Source: Thermoplasmatota archaeon
GTDB lineage: Archaea; Thermoplasmatota; Thermoplasmata; Halarchaeoplasmatales; Halarchaeoplasmataceae
Assembly (NCBI GenBank): GCA_018334835.1
Contig: JAGXLF010000006.1
Coordinates: 1 to 35,210 of the forward strand
Direction: 5' to 3'
DNA length: 35,210 nucleotides
The notes beneath the pieces are model-generated. The model did not search any database and was not told the origin of the DNA. It saw only the letters and a list, made by a program, of their open reading frames with translations. The translations under genes and the position numbers were made by a program. Every line of letters starts with the position of its first letter. Within the stretch, counting starts at the first letter, position 1. Below, one piece after another: positions 19,068 through 35,210 of this stretch.

Positions 19068-21545
19068 CTACATAGAGATAGGTATGCTTTCCATCTCCTT
19101 TTCCACTTTTTCTGCCATCGAGTTTTCTCCGCTGCCTGAAAATGAAAGTATCGCTTTTCTATAATTTTCGGCGATCCCATCCTTGTTATCCTTTTTTTCC
19201 TGTACTTTTGCCATGGAAAAATAAGTCAAGCCTAGTTTGTATGACGCTCCTATTTTTTGGTAAATGGATATTGACTTGTTGTAGTGTTCCTCCGCTTTTT
19301 CCGGCCGGTTTGCGATATTGTAAGCGTTTCCGAGCAAGGTGTGTGCCATCGCTTTCCCATCTTCATCATCGAGTTCTTCCAGAAGTTCTTTTGCTTCTTT
19401 TCCCGTCTGGATCGCTTCCTCGACCTTTCTTTTTTCAAGGTAACACTCCGTCAAAGATATAAGAGCTGATGCTTTCACATCCCTGTAACCAAATTTTTCA
19501 GAAGTATCGATCGCTTCCTTCAGATATTCTTCTGCGCTGGTGAGCTCTCTAAGTATTGTGTAAAAAGAACCTATCTCTTTTAGGCCTCCGATCCTTTTGT
19601 ATGTTTCTTTTATCTGCTGCCAGTGTTTCAAACCATTTCCAAAATAGTGGATCGATTCATCCCAATCTCCTTGCAGTTTCTTTATCCTAGCCATAACAAA
19701 ATAGGCTGTGGTCAAGAGAGAGTGTTCATCTTTTTCTAACGTGTCTATCGCTTTGGTAAGATGATCTTCAGCTTCTGTATACTTCCCTCTTTCACTCGAT
19801 AGTGAACCCTGTCTGAAGAAAATCTTACCGATCAATTTTTCCTTTTTTGATTTCGTAGCGATATCTTCTGCAGCTTCTATAGCCTCCTCATATTCAGAGA
19901 AAGCTCCTTCGTAGTCATTCTGCTCTTCCTTTGTAGATGCTGAACCCATATATGCTTTTGCGACAAGAAATGGGTCTTCATCAGACTCTATTATTTTCTT
20001 ATATGTGCCTAGAGCTTTCTGGTGCAGATTTTTTTTCCTATACGCCTCCGCTTTGATGAAGATAACAGAAAGATCCTGATTATACCCCTCGAACTCATCT
20101 ATCATTTCTATGAGCGTATCGTAATATCCCCTTGCTAGTAGGTATTTTCCTTCATCATTCATACATTCTTCAAAAGCCTCGTATTTCTTCGCTTTGAGCA
20201 GGTGGTATAGTTTTTCTATAGTGTGCTCTTCTCCTCTCGAAGGTTCATCGATATAATGATCAGAAGCTATTTCGTGAAGCCATCTCTCTTCTCTAGAGGT
20301 TAGATGAGGTGCGATCTCTTTTTTAATGAGGGGATGGACATATATATTCTTCTCAACTTTAGTGATGTCTACCAAGGGTGTATCTATGAGATTTTCTACC
20401 ATCTTAGAGGTTACAGGTTCCAATCGGGATAGAGCTTTTCTGTTCACGGGCTCTCGAAAAGTTGAGAGTAAAGCTAGAGCTAGATATTCTTCTTCGGTTA
20501 GATGATCATTTAATACATTTTCCAAGGAATCGATACCTTGTGAATAAAAATCTCTTAAAACATTCAAAAATATATCAGTCGAATTCAGCATAACTTTGTC
20601 TTCTTCAAATGAAAGATCGGGATGATCAATCTTTCTAGATATAACGAATCTAGAATGATCAGTTTTCTCTTTTAGAGAGATCATGTCCTCGATGATATCA
20701 GAAAGGTTCTCATTAGTATGGATGTCATCAAATATGAAGACCATCTTTTTTTCTTCGATATCCTCTAAGAAGTGGTTCAGTCTTTCTTTTCTTTCCAATT
20801 TTTTAGCAGATTTCAGATAGGAAGAAAGTTTATGCTGTCCACAATTTTCAAGAAATTCCGCAAGTTCTGTCCAAAGCTGCATCGGATCGTGGTGACTCCT
20901 CACGTCGAAGTAAAATACATTGTTACTCTCCCTTATCCTATCAGTTAATTTACTGAGAATAATGGTCTTACCACTCCCTTCTTCTCCGATAACTGATATG
21001 AGATCATTTCCTTTTTCCCAGATTTCCATAAGTTCCTCAAACTTCGGATGTTCTTTTTCGACAGCGAGGGGCAAATCCTTAAGATGTGATTCGAAAGAAT
21101 CCGTTAGTTTCTCTTCTTTGAGTTCGAATGAACCATATTTTTCGATCCTCTGGATTATATCTAGTAAGGAAAAGTTGGTCTGAAAGTAGGCGTTGATCTC
21201 CCCGAGCTTGATGAGACTTTTTTCTTTTTCAGAGGATATATCGACTTCTGTATTGACCATTTTTTCTCTGGTATCTTTTGCCTCTTTGAAGCCCTTGTCT
21301 GTCAGGAAATAAGCCTTTCTTTTCTGTTTTTTGTTTTTTATCCTCCGGGTCTCCTCTCTCAATGAACCCTCTTCGACAAGTTTTCTTACGGCATAAGATA
21401 CAGTGTTCTGCTTCAGACCCAACTGCTTCGCTATCCCCTCTTGAGTCAATTCTACGGGGAGTACATATCCTTCTTCGTTCCCGTAGTGATCAAGTAAATG
21501 AACGAGTACTTTTTCCTTCGCTGTAAAATTTGTATCCATATGCAA
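19068..21545 (-). CDS. wHTH - P-loop ATPase - TPR protein (STAND-like regulator)
   Basis: N-terminal winged HTH (ELTQEGIAKQLGLKQNTVSYAVRKLVEEGSL), Walker A GEEGSGKTIILSKL, Walker B KMVFIFDDIH, C-terminal TPR array. Confidence 0.88.
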   Translation of the reverse strand: MHMDTNFTAKEKVLVHLLDHYGNEEGYVLPVELTQEGIAKQLGLKQNTVSYAVRKLVEEGSLREETRRIKNKKQKRKAYFLTDKGFKEAKDTREKMVNTEVDISSEKEKSLIKLGEINAYFQTNFSLLDIIQRIEKYGSFELKEEKLTDSFESHLKDLPLAVEKEHPKFEELMEIWEKGNDLISVIGEEGSGKTIILSKLTDRIRESNNVFYFDVRSHHDPMQLWTELAEFLENCGQHKLSSYLKSAKKLERKERLNHFLEDIEEKKMVFIFDDIHTNENLSDIIEDMISLKEKTDHSRFVISRKIDHPDLSFEEDKVMLNSTDIFLNVLRDFYSQGIDSLENVLNDHLTEEEYLALALLSTFREPVNRKALSRLEPVTSKMVENLIDTPLVDITKVEKNIYVHPLIKKEIAPHLTSREERWLHEIASDHYIDEPSRGEEHTIEKLYHLLKAKKYEAFEECMNDEGKYLLARGYYDTLIEMIDEFEGYNQDLSVIFIKAEAYRKKNLHQKALGTYKKIIESDEDPFLVAKAYMGSASTKEEQNDYEGAFSEYEEAIEAAEDIATKSKKEKLIGKIFFRQGSLSSERGKYTEAEDHLTKAIDTLEKDEHSLLTTAYFVMARIKKLQGDWDESIHYFGNGLKHWQQIKETYKRIGGLKEIGSFYTILRELTSAEEYLKEAIDTSEKFGYRDVKASALISLTECYLEKRKVEEAIQTGKEAKELLEELDDEDGKAMAHTLLGNAYNIANRPEKAEEHYNKSISIYQKIGASYKLGLTYFSMAKVQEKKDNKDGIAENYRKAILSFSGSGENSMAEKVEKEMESIPISM

Positions 21546-23871: not shown

Positions 23872-23954
23872 CGGTCTTTCTTATCACATCATCTTATTTT
23901 ATAATTGTGCTAAAGAAGAAGAATTTTAACTGAGTATGACTATTGAAAGAAAAG

Positions 23955-25589
23955 ATGAAAACCGTACTTGGTGTCCACGATGGTCATGATGCAGGTGCAG
24001 CATTGATCCATGGCAAAGAGATCTACGCCGTGAATGAAGAGCGGCTAAGTAGAGAAAAATATCACCGTGGATTTCCTGAAAGATCGATCAGAGAATTGAT
24101 AAGAGTTTTAGAGATAGAAACACAAAATATAGACAAGATAGCTGTGGCGGGCATCTATAGAAAGAAAAAGCGCCTTTTGAAGATGAAACATGGGGTGAAA
24201 GAGATCCTAGGAAGTTTTGAAGGGGATATAATAACTGTTCGTCATCACAGGGCTCATGCCGCTGGAGCTTATTTTACTTCTGGATGGAACAGATGTATCG
24301 TTTTAACGATCGATGCCACCGGTGACGGTCTTTCTTCTGCAGTATATGTCGGAAAGAATGGAGAACTGAAGAAGATAGCTGAATCGTCATATCTTGACTC
24401 GGTTGGAGATTTTTATGCATCTATAACTGAGATGCTTGGGTTCGTTCCGATGAGACATGAGGGAAAGATAATGGCCCTTGCAGGCCATCAACGGGGGAAA
24501 AACTACCACGATTTTAAAGATGCCGTGGAAACCAAAGGTCTTGGATTTGAGAATCATCTGGAGACTACAGGATCAGAAACGGTGAAAAAACTCTCTAAGA
24601 ATATTGATTTTCCACTGAACAGAAAAAGGGAATGTTCTAACGTTCTGCGAGAAGATAAAAGAGATCATGAGCTCTGGGACAAAGCTGTCAAGACGGCGGG
24701 CTCAGCACAGAACCATCTAGAAAAGGAGATAAACAAATTATGTGAGAACTTAAAAGAGGATGAGGATATTGAGGGGCAAAAAAAGATATGCTACTCCGGA
24801 GGGGTGGCTCAAAACGTTAAAGTTAACAGGAGAGTAAAAGAGAATTTTGATGAGTGTTGGGTATTCCCTCATATGGGTGATGGTGGCCTAGCTTTAGGTT
24901 CTGCTTTCAAGGTGTATTCTGATCTAAAAAACGAAACAAAGTATTGGGATTGGAAAGAAAGTTGTGATAACGTATATCTTGGTCCTAAATTCAGTTCTAG
25001 CCAGATAGAAAAAGTTTTGGTTGAGAAGGATGATATTGATTTTGAGATCATTGATGATAAATCCGAGATCATATCTTCCTTATTGGCTAGTGGGAAAATA
25101 GTCGGATTATTTCAAGGTAGGATGGAATACGGACCTAGAGCGCTAGGAAACAGGTCTATAATTGCTAATCCTTCAAAGATGGAAACTAGAGAAAAACTAA
25201 ATAAGATGTTGGGCAGAGAGCCATTTCAGCCATTTTCGCCCACTATTTTGAGGAAACATGCGGATGATTATCTTGAAGACACTACTCCAAATAAATTCAT
25301 GACAATGTCTTTCGATGTAACCGAAAAGGCGAAAGAGCAAATAAAAGCTGCTACCCATATTGATGGTACTTGCAGACCTCAGATACTAGAGAGAAAAGAC
25401 AATCCTCCCTTTTATGATATAATAAAATGTTTTGAGAAAAAAACGGATATTGCAGCTGTTCTTAACACCAGCTTCAATCTTCATGGAGAGCCGATAGTTT
25501 GTACTCCAAAACAAGCTGTAGATGCATTCAAAAAGATCGGACTTGATGCTTTGGCGTGTGGAGAATTTCTAGTGACAAAAACAAAATAG
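23955..25589 (+). CDS. NodU/CmcH-family carbamoyltransferase
   Basis: GVHDGHDAGAALIHGKEIYAVNEERLSREKYHRGFP, VRHHRAHAAGAYFTS, TIDATGDGLS, GRMEYGPRALGNRSIIANP, FQPFSPTIL. Confidence 0.95.
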   Translation: MKTVLGVHDGHDAGAALIHGKEIYAVNEERLSREKYHRGFPERSIRELIRVLEIETQNIDKIAVAGIYRKKKRLLKMKHGVKEILGSFEGDIITVRHHRAHAAGAYFTSGWNRCIVLTIDATGDGLSSAVYVGKNGELKKIAESSYLDSVGDFYASITEMLGFVPMRHEGKIMALAGHQRGKNYHDFKDAVETKGLGFENHLETTGSETVKKLSKNIDFPLNRKRECSNVLREDKRDHELWDKAVKTAGSAQNHLEKEINKLCENLKEDEDIEGQKKICYSGGVAQNVKVNRRVKENFDECWVFPHMGDGGLALGSAFKVYSDLKNETKYWDWKESCDNVYLGPKFSSSQIEKVLVEKDDIDFEIIDDKSEIISSLLASGKIVGLFQGRMEYGPRALGNRSIIANPSKMETREKLNKMLGREPFQPFSPTILRKHADDYLEDTTPNKFMTMSFDVTEKAKEQIKAATHIDGTCRPQILERKDNPPFYDIIKCFEKKTDIAAVLNTSFNLHGEPIVCTPKQAVDAFKKIGLDALACGEFLVTKTK

Positions 25590-25603: not shown

Positions 25604-25657
25604 GGTTGATAGAAAGATACATATTAGAAGAATCATATTAACCTCTTAGGGTGTATC

Positions 25658-26428
25658 ATGAATAAAAACGAAAATAAATTCAAAAAATTGAGAAGATTCA
25701 ATGGATTCATGGCGATCCTACATTTTGTTCAGGGCGTTCTGATGTTGTACCTGAGCAACGACTTCGCCATAGAAGTTACCTCTTCTTACATAGGAGGGCC
25801 ACCTGGAACCAGCGTAGAGTCGCTGCAAACTAATATCCTTTTCGAACTACAGATCGGACCGGCAGTGGCTGCATTCTTATTCATGTCCGCGATCGCTCAC
25901 TTCGTCGTTTCTACATTCGGGTTTAAATGGTACAAAAGGAATCTTAAAAACCATGTGAACAGAGCCCGCTGGATAGAATATTCTTTTAGCAGTTCATTGA
26001 TGATAGTGGTGATAGGCATGCTTGTCGGGATAACCGACATCGGATTTTTAATAGTTTTATCTCTGGTCAATGCCTCGATGATCCTCTTTGGATGGCTTAT
26101 GGAGACTTACAACCAAAGAACTGAGAAGGTCGTTTGGACACCTTTCATATTTGGATGTATAGCAGGGGTGGCCCCGTGGATAGCGATAGCAGCTAAACTT
26201 TTAACCATCAGAGCTTACGCCGAGGTAGCAATCCCAGATTTTGTCTTATGGATATTCGTATCGATAGCTATATTCTTCAACATATTCGCATTGAACCAGC
26301 TATTGCAGTATAAAGGTGTCTGGAAATGGAAAGATTACCTTTATGGAGAGAAGATGTATATCGTTCTGAGCCTCGTCGCAAAATCGGCTTTAGCCTGGCA
26401 AGTTTTTTCTGGAACACTAGCCGGCTAG
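25658..26428 (+). CDS. Heliorhodopsin
   Basis: Seven hydrophobic segments; RWIEYSFSSSLMIVVIGML with E107, NASMILFGWLMET, FFNIFALNQLLQYKGVWKWKDYLYGEKMYIVLSLVAKSALAWQVFSGTL with the Schiff-base lysine at K242; His22 and His81. Confidence 0.96.
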   Translation: MNKNENKFKKLRRFNGFMAILHFVQGVLMLYLSNDFAIEVTSSYIGGPPGTSVESLQTNILFELQIGPAVAAFLFMSAIAHFVVSTFGFKWYKRNLKNHVNRARWIEYSFSSSLMIVVIGMLVGITDIGFLIVLSLVNASMILFGWLMETYNQRTEKVVWTPFIFGCIAGVAPWIAIAAKLLTIRAYAEVAIPDFVLWIFVSIAIFFNIFALNQLLQYKGVWKWKDYLYGEKMYIVLSLVAKSALAWQVFSGTLAG

Positions 26429-26477: not shown

Positions 26478-27917
26478 TCAATTGAACTCCCGTATAGAGA
26501 CCTTATTCGTTTTGGGATCTAGGATTGTAACTTTAGCAGGTTCCGGGTGGATGTCTCTCATCTTCTGATATTCCGTCTGTGTCTGCCAGGAGGACGCATT
26601 CACAAGAACTGTGCCGTGGTAGTCGTCTACAGCACACCTGTGGATATGGCCTGTAACGAATATATCCGGTACTTCTTCTATCGCCAAGTGATCTTTTTCT
26701 TCTGGAGCGATAGAGGTCTTCTTCCCGTATACAGGAACTAGATGCCTTCTTTTCAACATCTCTCTCTGAGCTGTTATCGGGCTCTCTTGGGTAACTTGAG
26801 GTAACATATCAGAGAGATCGTTTATGCTGTTACCGTGATACATCAGGATCTTCACACCCTCGAGTTCTATCAAAGAAGGATTCCCGAAGAACAGTACGTT
26901 TTCTGGAAACATCTCTCTTATCTCTTCAGGTAAACGGGGTTGAGGTTCAGCATTCCTCACGATATCGTGGTTACCTGGGATTGTGATTATCGTCAGATCA
27001 TCCCTTATAGCTTTGAAAAGCCTGGCCGCCTCTCGGTACTGCTCGTGGATATCGATGATATCCAGCTCTTCTTCTTGATTCGGGAAGATACCTATCCCAT
27101 CTATAAGGTCGCCGGGGATGATCAAGTATCTTATATTTTCGGCTTCATCAGAATTTATCCATGATGTAAAGTCGTCCCATCTATCCTTTAAGAAGGCGCT
27201 ACTCCCTACGTGGATATCTCCTAAAAAGGCGATCCTACCGGAGAAATCAGGCTTTGCTTTATCGTTCAACTTCGGTACATCTGGTCTTTTTATCTCTTCT
27301 ATCGCAAATGTGTCTTCGAAATCACCGTTGTTTTCCCACATCTCCCCTTTTGCAAGTATCACCTCGTCTTCTAGGATATTCTTCGTGTAGGCTTCGCTAT
27401 CGCTGGAGATAAAACCTCTTATCTCACCACTTTTATCTTCCAGAGTCAAGACTTTATTTCCGTTGGAAGTAGAGTGTATATCTCTAACCATACATATCGT
27501 AGAGGCTTCTCCTGCCCTTCTTGCTATTCTGTTTATGGGCCTAGCTTTTTTCCCCTCTCTTCTCTCTCTTATTATAGACCTCAGTGTTTTGAACCGGCTT
27601 TCAAAGTACTTACTGAAATCGTCTATTCCTCCAGTACATGTGGAATTTCCAGAGATGTCCTTCAACACTTCTATAGCCTCTCTAGGGTCACGGTCTTTCC
27701 GATCTGATCCTGGGCTTTTCTCTTCAACATCTTTTAAAACATCGTCTACAAAGCAGGAGATAGTCTCTTTACAAACTGGAAAGGGAAGTTTGTCTTCTTT
27801 CTCGGTCAGTTCCTCGATCACCTTGGAAGGCTCCTCCAATTCCTCTAGATATTCCATGGCTTCAGGAGTAAGAACCGTATTGTTCTTTGCGAGTTCACTG
27901 ACTATCCGGTCGCGCAT
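26478..27917 (-). CDS. polB: DNA polymerase II (family D) small subunit DP1
   Basis: OB-fold region followed by calcineurin-like motifs GDIHVGS, PGDLIDG, IPGNHD, YHGNSIND, GHIHRC; archaeal DP1 pattern. Confidence 0.95.
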   Translation of the reverse strand: MRDRIVSELAKNNTVLTPEAMEYLEELEEPSKVIEELTEKEDKLPFPVCKETISCFVDDVLKDVEEKSPGSDRKDRDPREAIEVLKDISGNSTCTGGIDDFSKYFESRFKTLRSIIRERREGKKARPINRIARRAGEASTICMVRDIHSTSNGNKVLTLEDKSGEIRGFISSDSEAYTKNILEDEVILAKGEMWENNGDFEDTFAIEEIKRPDVPKLNDKAKPDFSGRIAFLGDIHVGSSAFLKDRWDDFTSWINSDEAENIRYLIIPGDLIDGIGIFPNQEEELDIIDIHEQYREAARLFKAIRDDLTIITIPGNHDIVRNAEPQPRLPEEIREMFPENVLFFGNPSLIELEGVKILMYHGNSINDLSDMLPQVTQESPITAQREMLKRRHLVPVYGKKTSIAPEEKDHLAIEEVPDIFVTGHIHRCAVDDYHGTVLVNASSWQTQTEYQKMRDIHPEPAKVTILDPKTNKVSIREFN

Positions 27918-31725: not shown

Positions 31726-34700
31726 ATGGAGAAATATATCATGAATACGCCTCGAAGACGGTTGCGTAAAGCCTTTTTTCCTTTGTTGATCTCTACTCTT
31801 CTTGTGGCCTCTGTTTTCTCTTCAGGGATAGTTTTAGCTGAAGAAAATGAAGACAAGATCGAAATCCTCATACACAAGCAAGGGCTAGACTTTGAAAAAT
31901 TGAGTGTCAGACAAGAATTTTCTGTAATAGAAGAATATCATGAATTTGCTTTAGTCGAAACCACCGAAGAAAAGAAACTCACTTTGATGAGAGAAGGACA
32001 TATTATCGAGACTCTAGAAAATAAATATCATGTGGGGTTGCGTTCTTATTCTTTTAATACAGATGAGGGAACACCAAAAATACCTGAAAATCTTAAGATA
32101 GAAAAATATGCTGGCCAGGAAGAAGGTACCTACATAATCCAATTCATCGGTCCGATCAAAACCGAATGGAAAGAAGAACTCAAAGATATGGGAGTGAGTT
32201 TTCATGAATTCAGGCACAGGTACAATTACATAGTGAAGATGGACCCTAGCATCGAGAGAGATGTTGAAGACCTTAATTTTGTAAATTGGGTCGGTATATA
32301 TCAGCCCGCCTACAAGTTCGATCCCGGATTACTCAAAAGGTCGGATCCCGTAAATATAGAAATATCAATATTTGATGGGTCTAGACCGGAAAGTCTAGAA
32401 GGCAAAGAGCTTGGCCTTTCAGAATCTCAGTTCATCCCTGAAAAGGGTCGAATAACAGGTCAGGTAGAATCTGGGGGGATAAAAAGATTAGCTAATCAAC
32501 CTCATGTTCTTTCTATAACTGAGGAAACAGAAGAATACCAACTTTACAACTCAGATGCAACATGGGTAACAGAGACCGATCAACAAAACTATCGAAAAAT
32601 GACTGAAGATGGTATCACAGGAAATGGAGAACTGATCACCGTGATGGATAGCCAATTGTACATGGAAGATGACTGGATCGGAGAAGGTGTACACGAGGCG
32701 TGGGAAGACCCTGACGGCAATTCTGTAGGAGACGATCATCGCAAGGTCCAAGCTTGGTACGTGCCTGGAGATTCCAGTGCAAAACTAGAATACGGTGTTT
32801 ATCACGGCACTCACGTGACAGGTACAGTATTAGGTAACTCTCCTTCGTATGGTGAATACAGTAATAATGATGGTAATGCTCTCGAGGGACGGCTGATTTT
32901 TCAGGATATAGATAATGAAGTGTATGGTCTCAACCTTCCTTCAGATATGTACAATATGGGTTGGGGCGACGCTTACGATAGAGACTCTAGGGTTCATACG
33001 AACAGTTGGGGAGGAGGAGACGGCTACGGCGGTTTAGGTCTTGAGGCTGACGAATTCCTCTGGGATCACAAAGATTTCAATATTCTTTTTGCGATGGCTA
33101 ATTCTGGCCCCGATCCAAACACACTTTCTCAACAGGCTGAAGGGAAAAACGTGATCAGTGTGGGCTCAGTTAAGAATTATCCTTATCAGGAAAGCGTTTC
33201 TTCTTTCAGCAGCAGAGGTTATGCGGACGATGGCAGGATAAAACCAACTGTGATGCACGTGGGTGAGAACGTCGTCTCAGCGAATCGGAGCTATGATGGC
33301 TATCAATCTCTAAGTGGAACGAGTATGGCGACGCCCGGCATCGCAGGCCAAGTTGGTCAGATCAGACAGTACTTCGGAGAAGGTTGGCATATAGGCGGTA
33401 TTCCTAATGAAGGGGAAGGTTTCCAACCGAGCAACGCCCTTGTCAGAGCTACATTAATCAACGGCGCAGTTGAGATAACAGGTGAAGGAGCTTACCACAG
33501 CGATGAGATGTTTCCGAACAAAGACCAAGGGTATGGTAGAAGTAAGCTAGACCGAGTTTTACACCTTGAAGGAGATGAGAGGGAGTTGGAAGTGTTCGAT
33601 TCATTGGATGAAAATGTAACTCTTGATACTGGCGAGAGCTGGAGCATGAACTTTGAAGTCGATGATCCCTCACAAGAACTTGAAGTCGCTTTAGCTTGGA
33701 CAGATCATCCCGGGTCGAGTGGTTCTAATGAGAGCAATCCAGCGATCGTCAACGATCTCGATCTTGAGTTAAATACGCCAAATGGTACAAGATATGTAGG
33801 TAATGCATTTACGGGATATAATCCCGGTTACTCAAAGGGGAATCCAACCAGCAATCCGTGGAACGGACAGCGCGATGGGGAATTTGATGGATTGAACGTG
33901 GAAGAAAACATCCTCTTGATTCCAGATCAGAACGGCGTTGAAGGAGGTACTTACGAGCTGACGGTCAGTGGTCATAACGTTCCCGAAGATACACAACCTT
34001 TTGCTATTGTAATAAGCGGCGGACTCGGTTCGTCTGAAACTTCTAAATCACCTTCCATCGAACTGACAAACCCGAAAGAAGGAGAAACTTGGTATTCTGG
34101 GGGGAAAGAAGACATCACCTGGGAAACTGAAAGGGGCGATGGATCCTTAGAAGATGTCGATCTGGAATACTCTTCAGATGGAGGCGCTTCCTGGTCGTCT
34201 ATAGCTCAAGGTGTTGAGGACGATGGCGTTTACACATGGACTGTACCTGAGATATCTTCTAGTGAAGCGAAAATCCGGGCGACCGTCTACGATAGTAACG
34301 ATCTTAGCGATGAAAACGTTAGTGGTCTGTTCACCATTGAGGAGAAATCTAGTCCACTCAAACCGACTAATCCGGAGCCTAAAGATGGAGCTACGGGCAT
34401 AAATGCTGATGTTAAATTGAGTATTTACGTAGAACATGAAGATGGCGAGGATATGGACGTGTATTTCTATGATGCCTCCGATGATAGCCTGATTGGAAAG
34501 GATGAAGGAATACCTTCAGGTTCACGCTCTTCTGTAGACTGGATAGGACTGGATCATGGAACTATTTACGAATGGTATGCTGAAGCTGATGATGGCAAAT
34601 CAAGTAACGTATCTGGTGTTTGGCAATTCACAACTATAGAAGAGCACATCCTTACGATCGAAACTATAGGTCAAGGTAGTATCGATCCTTCCGAAGGGAG

Positions 34701-35210
34701 TCATAATTATACACATGGTGAAGAGGTTAACTTAACAGCTGTTCCAGATCAAGGTTATGAATTCGATGGATGGACAGGTGACTATACCGGCAGTGAAGAT
34801 AACATCACCATAACTATGGATAGCGACAAGGAGATAACTGCTCACTTTGAAATCAAGACTTATGAACTTACTGTAAATACAGTTGGAGAAGGCTCTGTGG
34901 ATGTAGAACCTGAAAAGATGGAGTATGAACATGGTGAAGAAGTTAACTTAACAGCTGTTCCAGATCAAGGTTATGAATTCGATGGATGGACAGGAGACTA
35001 TACCGGCAGTGAAGATAACATCACCATAACTATGGATAGCGACAAAGAGATAACAGCACAATTTGAAATCAAGACTTATGAACTTACTGTAAATACAGTT
35101 GGAGAAGGCTCTGTGGATGTGGAACCTGAAAAGATGGAGTACGAACATGGTGAAGAGGTTAACTTAACAGCTGTTCCAGATCAAGGTTATGAATTCGATG
35201 GATGGACAGG
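31726..35210 (+). CDS. Secreted S8 subtilisin-like serine protease with C-terminal Ig-like and InlB B-repeat-like domains (incomplete at window end)
   Basis: Manual translation from ATG 31726 (or 31741) gives an open frame to the window end: signal MNTPRRRLRKAFFPLLISTLLVASVFSSGIVLA; GELITVMDSQ (Asp), YHGTHVTGTV (His), LSGTSMATPGIAG (Ser); HGEEVNLTAVPDQGYEFDGWTGDYTGSEDNITITMDSDKEITA repeats. Absent from the ORF track, apparently because it has no stop in the window. Confidence 0.95.
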   Translation, partial: MEKYIMNTPRRRLRKAFFPLLISTLLVASVFSSGIVLAEENEDKIEILIHKQGLDFEKLSVRQEFSVIEEYHEFALVETTEEKKLTLMREGHIIETLENKYHVGLRSYSFNTDEGTPKIPENLKIEKYAGQEEGTYIIQFIGPIKTEWKEELKDMGVSFHEFRHRYNYIVKMDPSIERDVEDLNFVNWVGIYQPAYKFDPGLLKRSDPVNIEISIFDGSRPESLEGKELGLSESQFIPEKGRITGQVESGGIKRLANQPHVLSITEETEEYQLYNSDATWVTETDQQNYRKMTEDGITGNGELITVMDSQLYMEDDWIGEGVHEAWEDPDGNSVGDDHRKVQAWYVPGDSSAKLEYGVYHGTHVTGTVLGNSPSYGEYSNNDGNALEGRLIFQDIDNEVYGLNLPSDMYNMGWGDAYDRDSRVHTNSWGGGDGYGGLGLEADEFLWDHKDFNILFAMANSGPDPNTLSQQAEGKNVISVGSVKNYPYQESVSSFSSRGYADDGRIKPTVMHVGENVVSANRSYDGYQSLSGTSMATPGIAGQVGQIRQYFGEGWHIGGIPNEGEGFQPSNALVRATLINGAVEITGEGAYHSDEMFPNKDQGYGRSKLDRVLHLEGDERELEVFDSLDENVTLDTGESWSMNFEVDDPSQELEVALAWTDHPGSSGSNESNPAIVNDLDLELNTPNGTRYVGNAFTGYNPGYSKGNPTSNPWNGQRDGEFDGLNVEENILLIPDQNGVEGGTYELTVSGHNVPEDTQPFAIVISGGLGSSETSKSPSIELTNPKEGETWYSGGKEDITWETERGDGSLEDVDLEYSSDGGASWSSIAQGVEDDGVYTWTVPEISSSEAKIRATVYDSNDLSDENVSGLFTIEEKSSPLKPTNPEPKDGATGINADVKLSIYVEHEDGEDMDVYFYDASDDSLIGKDEGIPSGSRSSVDWIGLDHGTIYEWYAEADDGKSSNVSGVWQFTTIEEHILTIETIGQGSIDPSEGSHNYTHGEEVNLTAVPDQGYEFDGWTGDYTGSEDNITITMDSDKEITAHFEIKTYELTVNTVGEGSVDVEPEKMEYEHGEEVNLTAVPDQGYEFDGWTGDYTGSEDNITITMDSDKEITAQFEIKTYELTVNTVGEGSVDVEPEKMEYEHGEEVNLTAVPDQGYEFDGWT
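34645..35210 (+). repeat. Tandem 216-bp (72-aa) repeats in the subtilase C-terminus
   Basis: Copies start at 34861 and 35077 (exact 216-bp offset, few substitutions), preceded by a more divergent copy at about 34645. Confidence 0.9.

Follow-up and report, generated by a model that had tools for sequence, protein, structure and literature searches.

The gene at positions 25658..26428 on the + strand of the window (the whole 35,210-nucleotide stretch that was analysed) encodes a genuine canonical heliorhodopsin (HeR) of 256 amino acids in a halophilic thermoplasmatote, and this HeR is probably a light sensor or regulator that transports no ions and most likely takes its retinal from the brine. 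The open reading frame, its length, and every motif quoted in the original prediction were present on that strand. The HMM search proposed with that prediction matched the Heliorhodopsin profile over its full length: PF18761 aligned residues 11-254 of the protein (P0001) with profile positions 1-242 of 242 at an E-value of 5e-100 and 334 bits against a cut-off of 26.7. In addition, the NCBIfam HeR equivalog NF038020 scored 341 bits against a cut-off of 100. Both scores are far past chance and establish the proposed identity. The nearest solved structures by sequence in a PDB search were TaHeR (1.9e-76) and 48C12 (3.6e-71). The type-1 rhodopsin family PF01036 was not among the Pfam matches of the protein, nor was it found in the genome that carries the window or in the family, in scans in which no control genome gave a match either. 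The protein starts MNKNENKFKKLRRFNG and has no cysteine ahead of TM1, so that an N-terminal CxxC zinc ribbon is absent.

An AlphaFold model built from 26 aligned HeRs (pLDDT 91.8) backed the seven helices claimed earlier. The model showed the seven-helix HeR fold with a long beta hairpin in ECL1 (strands 37-45 and 56-65). Its best 10 fold matches in the PDB were all heliorhodopsins, with type-1 rhodopsins far behind; the TM score against TaHeR was 0.91-0.94, and the rmsd to 6IS6 was 1.7 Å. As judged from homology, the N-terminus would lie inside the cell, in the inverted topology. Alignment with TaHeR and 48C12, which had been suggested as a check, placed K242 and E107 exactly at the positions of the Schiff-base lysine and the counterion (K241 and E107 of 48C12), as had been claimed. 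The S-xxx-K motif in TM7 is formed by S238 and K242, and E107 is the glutamate counterion in TM3. Residues H22, H81, R104, E107, Y108, S111, G145, E149, W174, F207, S238, and K242 were invariant in 46 aligned HeRs; among these, the three additional residues singled out in the original prediction, His22, His81, and Ser238, match those of TaHeR and 48C12.

Upstream of the gene, an A-rich archaeal TATA-like box, AAAGATACATAT (25613..25624, + strand), was located 45 nt ahead of the start codon; a probable ribosome-binding site, AGGGTG (25648..25653, + strand), immediately precedes the ATG. In 9 of the 13 HeR genes of the family, a box with at least 10 of 12 positions matched precedes the start by 29-48 nt. 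The mean best match was 10.6/12 versus 8.5 (sd 0.22) in mononucleotide shuffles, a comparison that is indicative only, since the consensus was derived from the same sequences that it scored and the shuffles preserved single-nucleotide composition. The sequence GAGGG, which is akin to AGGGTG, was found upstream of HeR at four related loci (L002, L003, L004, and L007). Read from these upstream sequences, the HeR gene is probably transcribed on its own. In comparisons of the gene with five relatives, pN was 0.15-0.18 and pS was 0.79-0.86, with synonymous sites saturated. Therefore, the gene is under purifying selection.

The host belongs, by its taxonomy label, to Ca. Halarchaeoplasmataceae, the named members of which include Ca. 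Saliniplasma and Haladaptatiplasma. Members of this group are described as halophiles that inhabit the sediment of soda-saline lakes, probably follow a salt-in strategy, and use organic carbon, CO, and H2 (PMC11332174). HeR was found in 13 of the 16 family genomes and in 48 of 200 sampled genomes of the class. The close relatives of the window HeR (74-78% identity) were those of Thermoplasmata from soda lakes and salt lakes. In the HeR tree, the family sequences fell into two clades, one containing the window gene and the other nearer to TaHeR-type sequences, a split that may reflect either two acquisitions or an old divergence. A viral origin of the window HeR was rejected; viral HeRs occurred on only three contigs and showed 40-46% identity. 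A separate observation concerns positions 1770-2525 of locus L006, a 4.4-kb contig binned as a Halanaerobiaceae bacterium: the HeR encoded there belongs to the window clade (66% identity), which reflects either transfer or mis-binning.

The HeR gene lies in an archaeal housekeeping neighbourhood, as originally described, and both the profile matches and the annotated neighbours agree with this description. The upstream neighbour encodes a NodU/CmcH-type carbamoyltransferase (23943..25589, + strand; PF16861 and PF02543), and the convergent downstream neighbour encodes the small subunit of DNA polymerase D (26478..27917, − strand; NF003118, 520 bits against a cut-off of 445); both were judged to stand outside the HeR system. 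Other window genes encode an EF-Tu-family GTPase, tRNA-Ala, thiamine-pathway enzymes, a RecJ/Cdc45-type DHH protein, a beta-CASP nuclease, a prepilin peptidase, and TFB. No phototrophy gene was found among these annotated neighbours, in line with the earlier statement that the surroundings bear no sign of phototrophy. The order carbamoyltransferase-HeR recurred in L004/G010 only, and the neighbours differed in all other relatives. When the genes flanking HeR were clustered, for the named relatives as well as the 13 loci of the family, no gene recurred beside HeR across the lineage, and an operon partner was rejected. The neighbourhood consists of housekeeping genes and is not conserved, so it does not imply an operon partner for HeR. 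Two further frames in the window were recorded. One (19068-21545) encodes an 825-aa protein that combines a winged helix, a NB-ARC/STAND-type ATPase, and TPR repeats; the L004 neighbourhood contains a homologue as well. The other (31727-35210) is a long open frame that, by eye from its sequence, looks like a secreted subtilase-type protease; it has near-identical C-terminal repeats and continues past the window end.

Retinal and carotenoid genes were searched for in the window, the genome, and its relatives. The annotated genes of the window bear out the earlier claim that it contains no retinal biosynthesis gene. BCD (PF15461, blh/brp) was not detected in the own genome or the 16 family genomes, even at lenient thresholds, nor above the cut-off in 200 class genomes, nor in a phylum scan or in 33 genomes that were mostly named relatives. 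These scans contained no genome with a known blh and no positive-control genome matched, although the PF15461 model itself detects the Blh of Pantoea soli (74.9 bits); the own genome (G000) is 83.6% complete, which limits statements of absence. Two sub-cut-off BCD matches were not counted: one (L092) is in a protein that looks MarC-like from its translation, and the other (L093) consists of short frames with stops. Carotenoid oxygenase (RPE65) was not found above the cut-off in the family, and CrtYcd-type lycopene cyclase was found in 0 of 16 family genomes. On the other hand, phytoene synthase was found in 2 of the 16, namely the own genome and G015. In the own genome, a crtI-crtB-UbiA cluster is located on contig C39 (L070, 220-3450), with its crtI matching the CrtID equivalog (699 bits against 640) and its UbiA prenyltransferase matching PRK12875 (330 bits against 205). 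The whole-genome search for blh and crt genes that had been proposed earlier gave no match for blh or lycopene cyclase and a positive result for crtI-crtB-UbiA. Contamination was ruled out as the source of the cluster by the same gene order in G015 (L071 and partly L072; 74% and 68% identity). Such a cluster without a cyclase is presumably a C50 (bacterioruberin-type) carotenoid pathway, and acyclic C50 carotenoids are its predicted products in the own genome. Lycopene cyclase was present in three HeR-bearing Thermoplasmata genomes on the TaHeR side (L017, L019, and L039; loci L094-L099) and adjoins crtI in two of three loci. BCD was not found in these genomes; therefore, the final known step towards retinal would be missing from them too.

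Alternative functions were weighed against the residues and the gene context. At the positions of Ile199 and Phe203 in TaHeR, the proton-transporting HeRs of giant viruses carry Glu191 and Trp195 (PMC9448325). The window HeR belongs to the same protein family as V2HeR3, a point in favour of light-driven proton movement, but the hallmark Glu191 and Trp195 (V2HeR3 numbering) are replaced by Ile203 and Phe207 (placed via I199 and F203 of TaHeR). TaHeR shares this pattern and gave no sign of transport, and such a function is highly improbable for the window HeR. Because Ile203/Phe207, Gln217, and Glu231 are all as in TaHeR, the window HeR is predicted to be non-ion-transporting. HeRs elsewhere regulate the products of adjacent genes, such as glutamine synthetase (PMC9529153), photolyase (PMC9769723), and an ABC transporter (PMC11109279), and this precedent raises the question of whether the NodU-type carbamoyltransferase is regulated in the same way. 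The two genes lie on the same strand with a gap of 68 bp, and the order is kept in L004/G010 with a gap of 51 bp. However, the rest of the genus and the family do not keep this order, and the TATA box and the SD-like site separate the two genes; regulation of the carbamoyltransferase is unlikely.

No known retinal-making gene was detected in the own genome, so any source of the chromophore is putative. Aurantimicrobium minutum makes retinal without blh or other known genes and has a C50 pathway (PMC7734400), so that the lack of known genes is no proof of auxotrophy. This precedent, together with the crtI-crtB-UbiA genes on C39 and in G015, is what speaks for retinal being made in the cell by a novel enzyme, for example from C50 carotenoids. 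Nevertheless, the other HeR-bearing family genomes have no phytoene synthase and, since a CrtYcd-type lycopene cyclase was not found in the family, there would be no ring from which to form retinal; we consider this route unlikely. The sediment habitat, the anaerobic lifestyle, and the undetected retinal genes would also fit an apoprotein in dark sediment with a light-independent structural role or none, but the invariance of K242, the counterion, and the pocket residues and the purifying selection on the gene make this improbable. Exogenous retinal has been proposed for HeR carriers among Bathyarchaeota (PMC7110647) and Luna-1 actinobacteria (PMC12422013), and the uptake of external retinal would be the simplest reading for the window HeR.

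A working photoreceptor is favoured because the chromophore residues are intact, the gene is under purifying selection and has its own promoter, and HeR is retained in 13 of 16 genomes. We infer that the protein is photoactive, binds retinal from outside, and signals through a partner. It would be an N-in, seven-helix retinal protein with a Schiff base on K242 and E107 as the counterion, whose cytoplasmic face may move against a partner encoded elsewhere; its retinal would most likely be taken from the brine, where Halobacteria and other retinal makers may be the producers. The wider proposal, that an anaerobic halophilic family has kept a retinal-competent HeR without retinal synthesis and mostly without carotenoids, and depends for its light sense on the retinal of others, is a tentative one that we regard as close to evenly balanced. 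The function of HeRs is unsettled in most organisms. Archaeal HeRs and retinal auxotrophy have both been published as ideas, and the window HeR leaves the definition of heliorhodopsin unchanged. A conserved opsin without a detected chromophore pathway offers a clean setting for testing retinal scavenging in archaea, and the lineage removes the adjacent-gene shortcut to the signalling partner of HeR.

Among known systems, TaHeR of Thermoplasmatales archaeon SG8-52-1 (PDB 6IS6, 7CLJ, and 7U55; 53% identity over 244 aligned positions) shares with the window HeR the counterion, the lysine, the non-transporting TM6 pattern, and the fold (TM 0.91-0.94). It differs in the sequence and length of ECL1 and the TM5-6 loop, and has Leu in place of W146; furthermore, lycopene cyclase occurs in some TaHeR-side relatives, unlike in the window family. 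The actinobacterial 48C12 (PDB 6SU3 and 6UH3; 51% identity over 243 positions) has the same pocket residues with nearly equal numbering, and differs in being bacterial. The HeRs of Ca. Saliniplasma halalkaliphilum and of the soda-lake Thermoplasmata B1Sed10_20 and T1Sed10_119m (74-78% identity) form one well-supported clade with the window HeR, whereas their neighbourhoods, except that of T1Sed10_119m, differ from that of the window. In Bathyarchaeota (PMC7110647) and Luna-1 (PMC12422013), too, HeR occurs where the known retinal pathway is incomplete, but both belong to other lineages, and crt genes are kept in most Luna-1 genomes (PMC12422013), in contrast to most members of the window family. 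The Zn-ribbon-HeR fusions of Thermoplasmatales and the MORN-HeR fusions (PMC8612252) have the HeR core and monoderm hosts in common with the window HeR. The window HeR differs in that no carotenoid or photolyase gene adjoins it and its 256 residues start at the core with no N-terminal extension.
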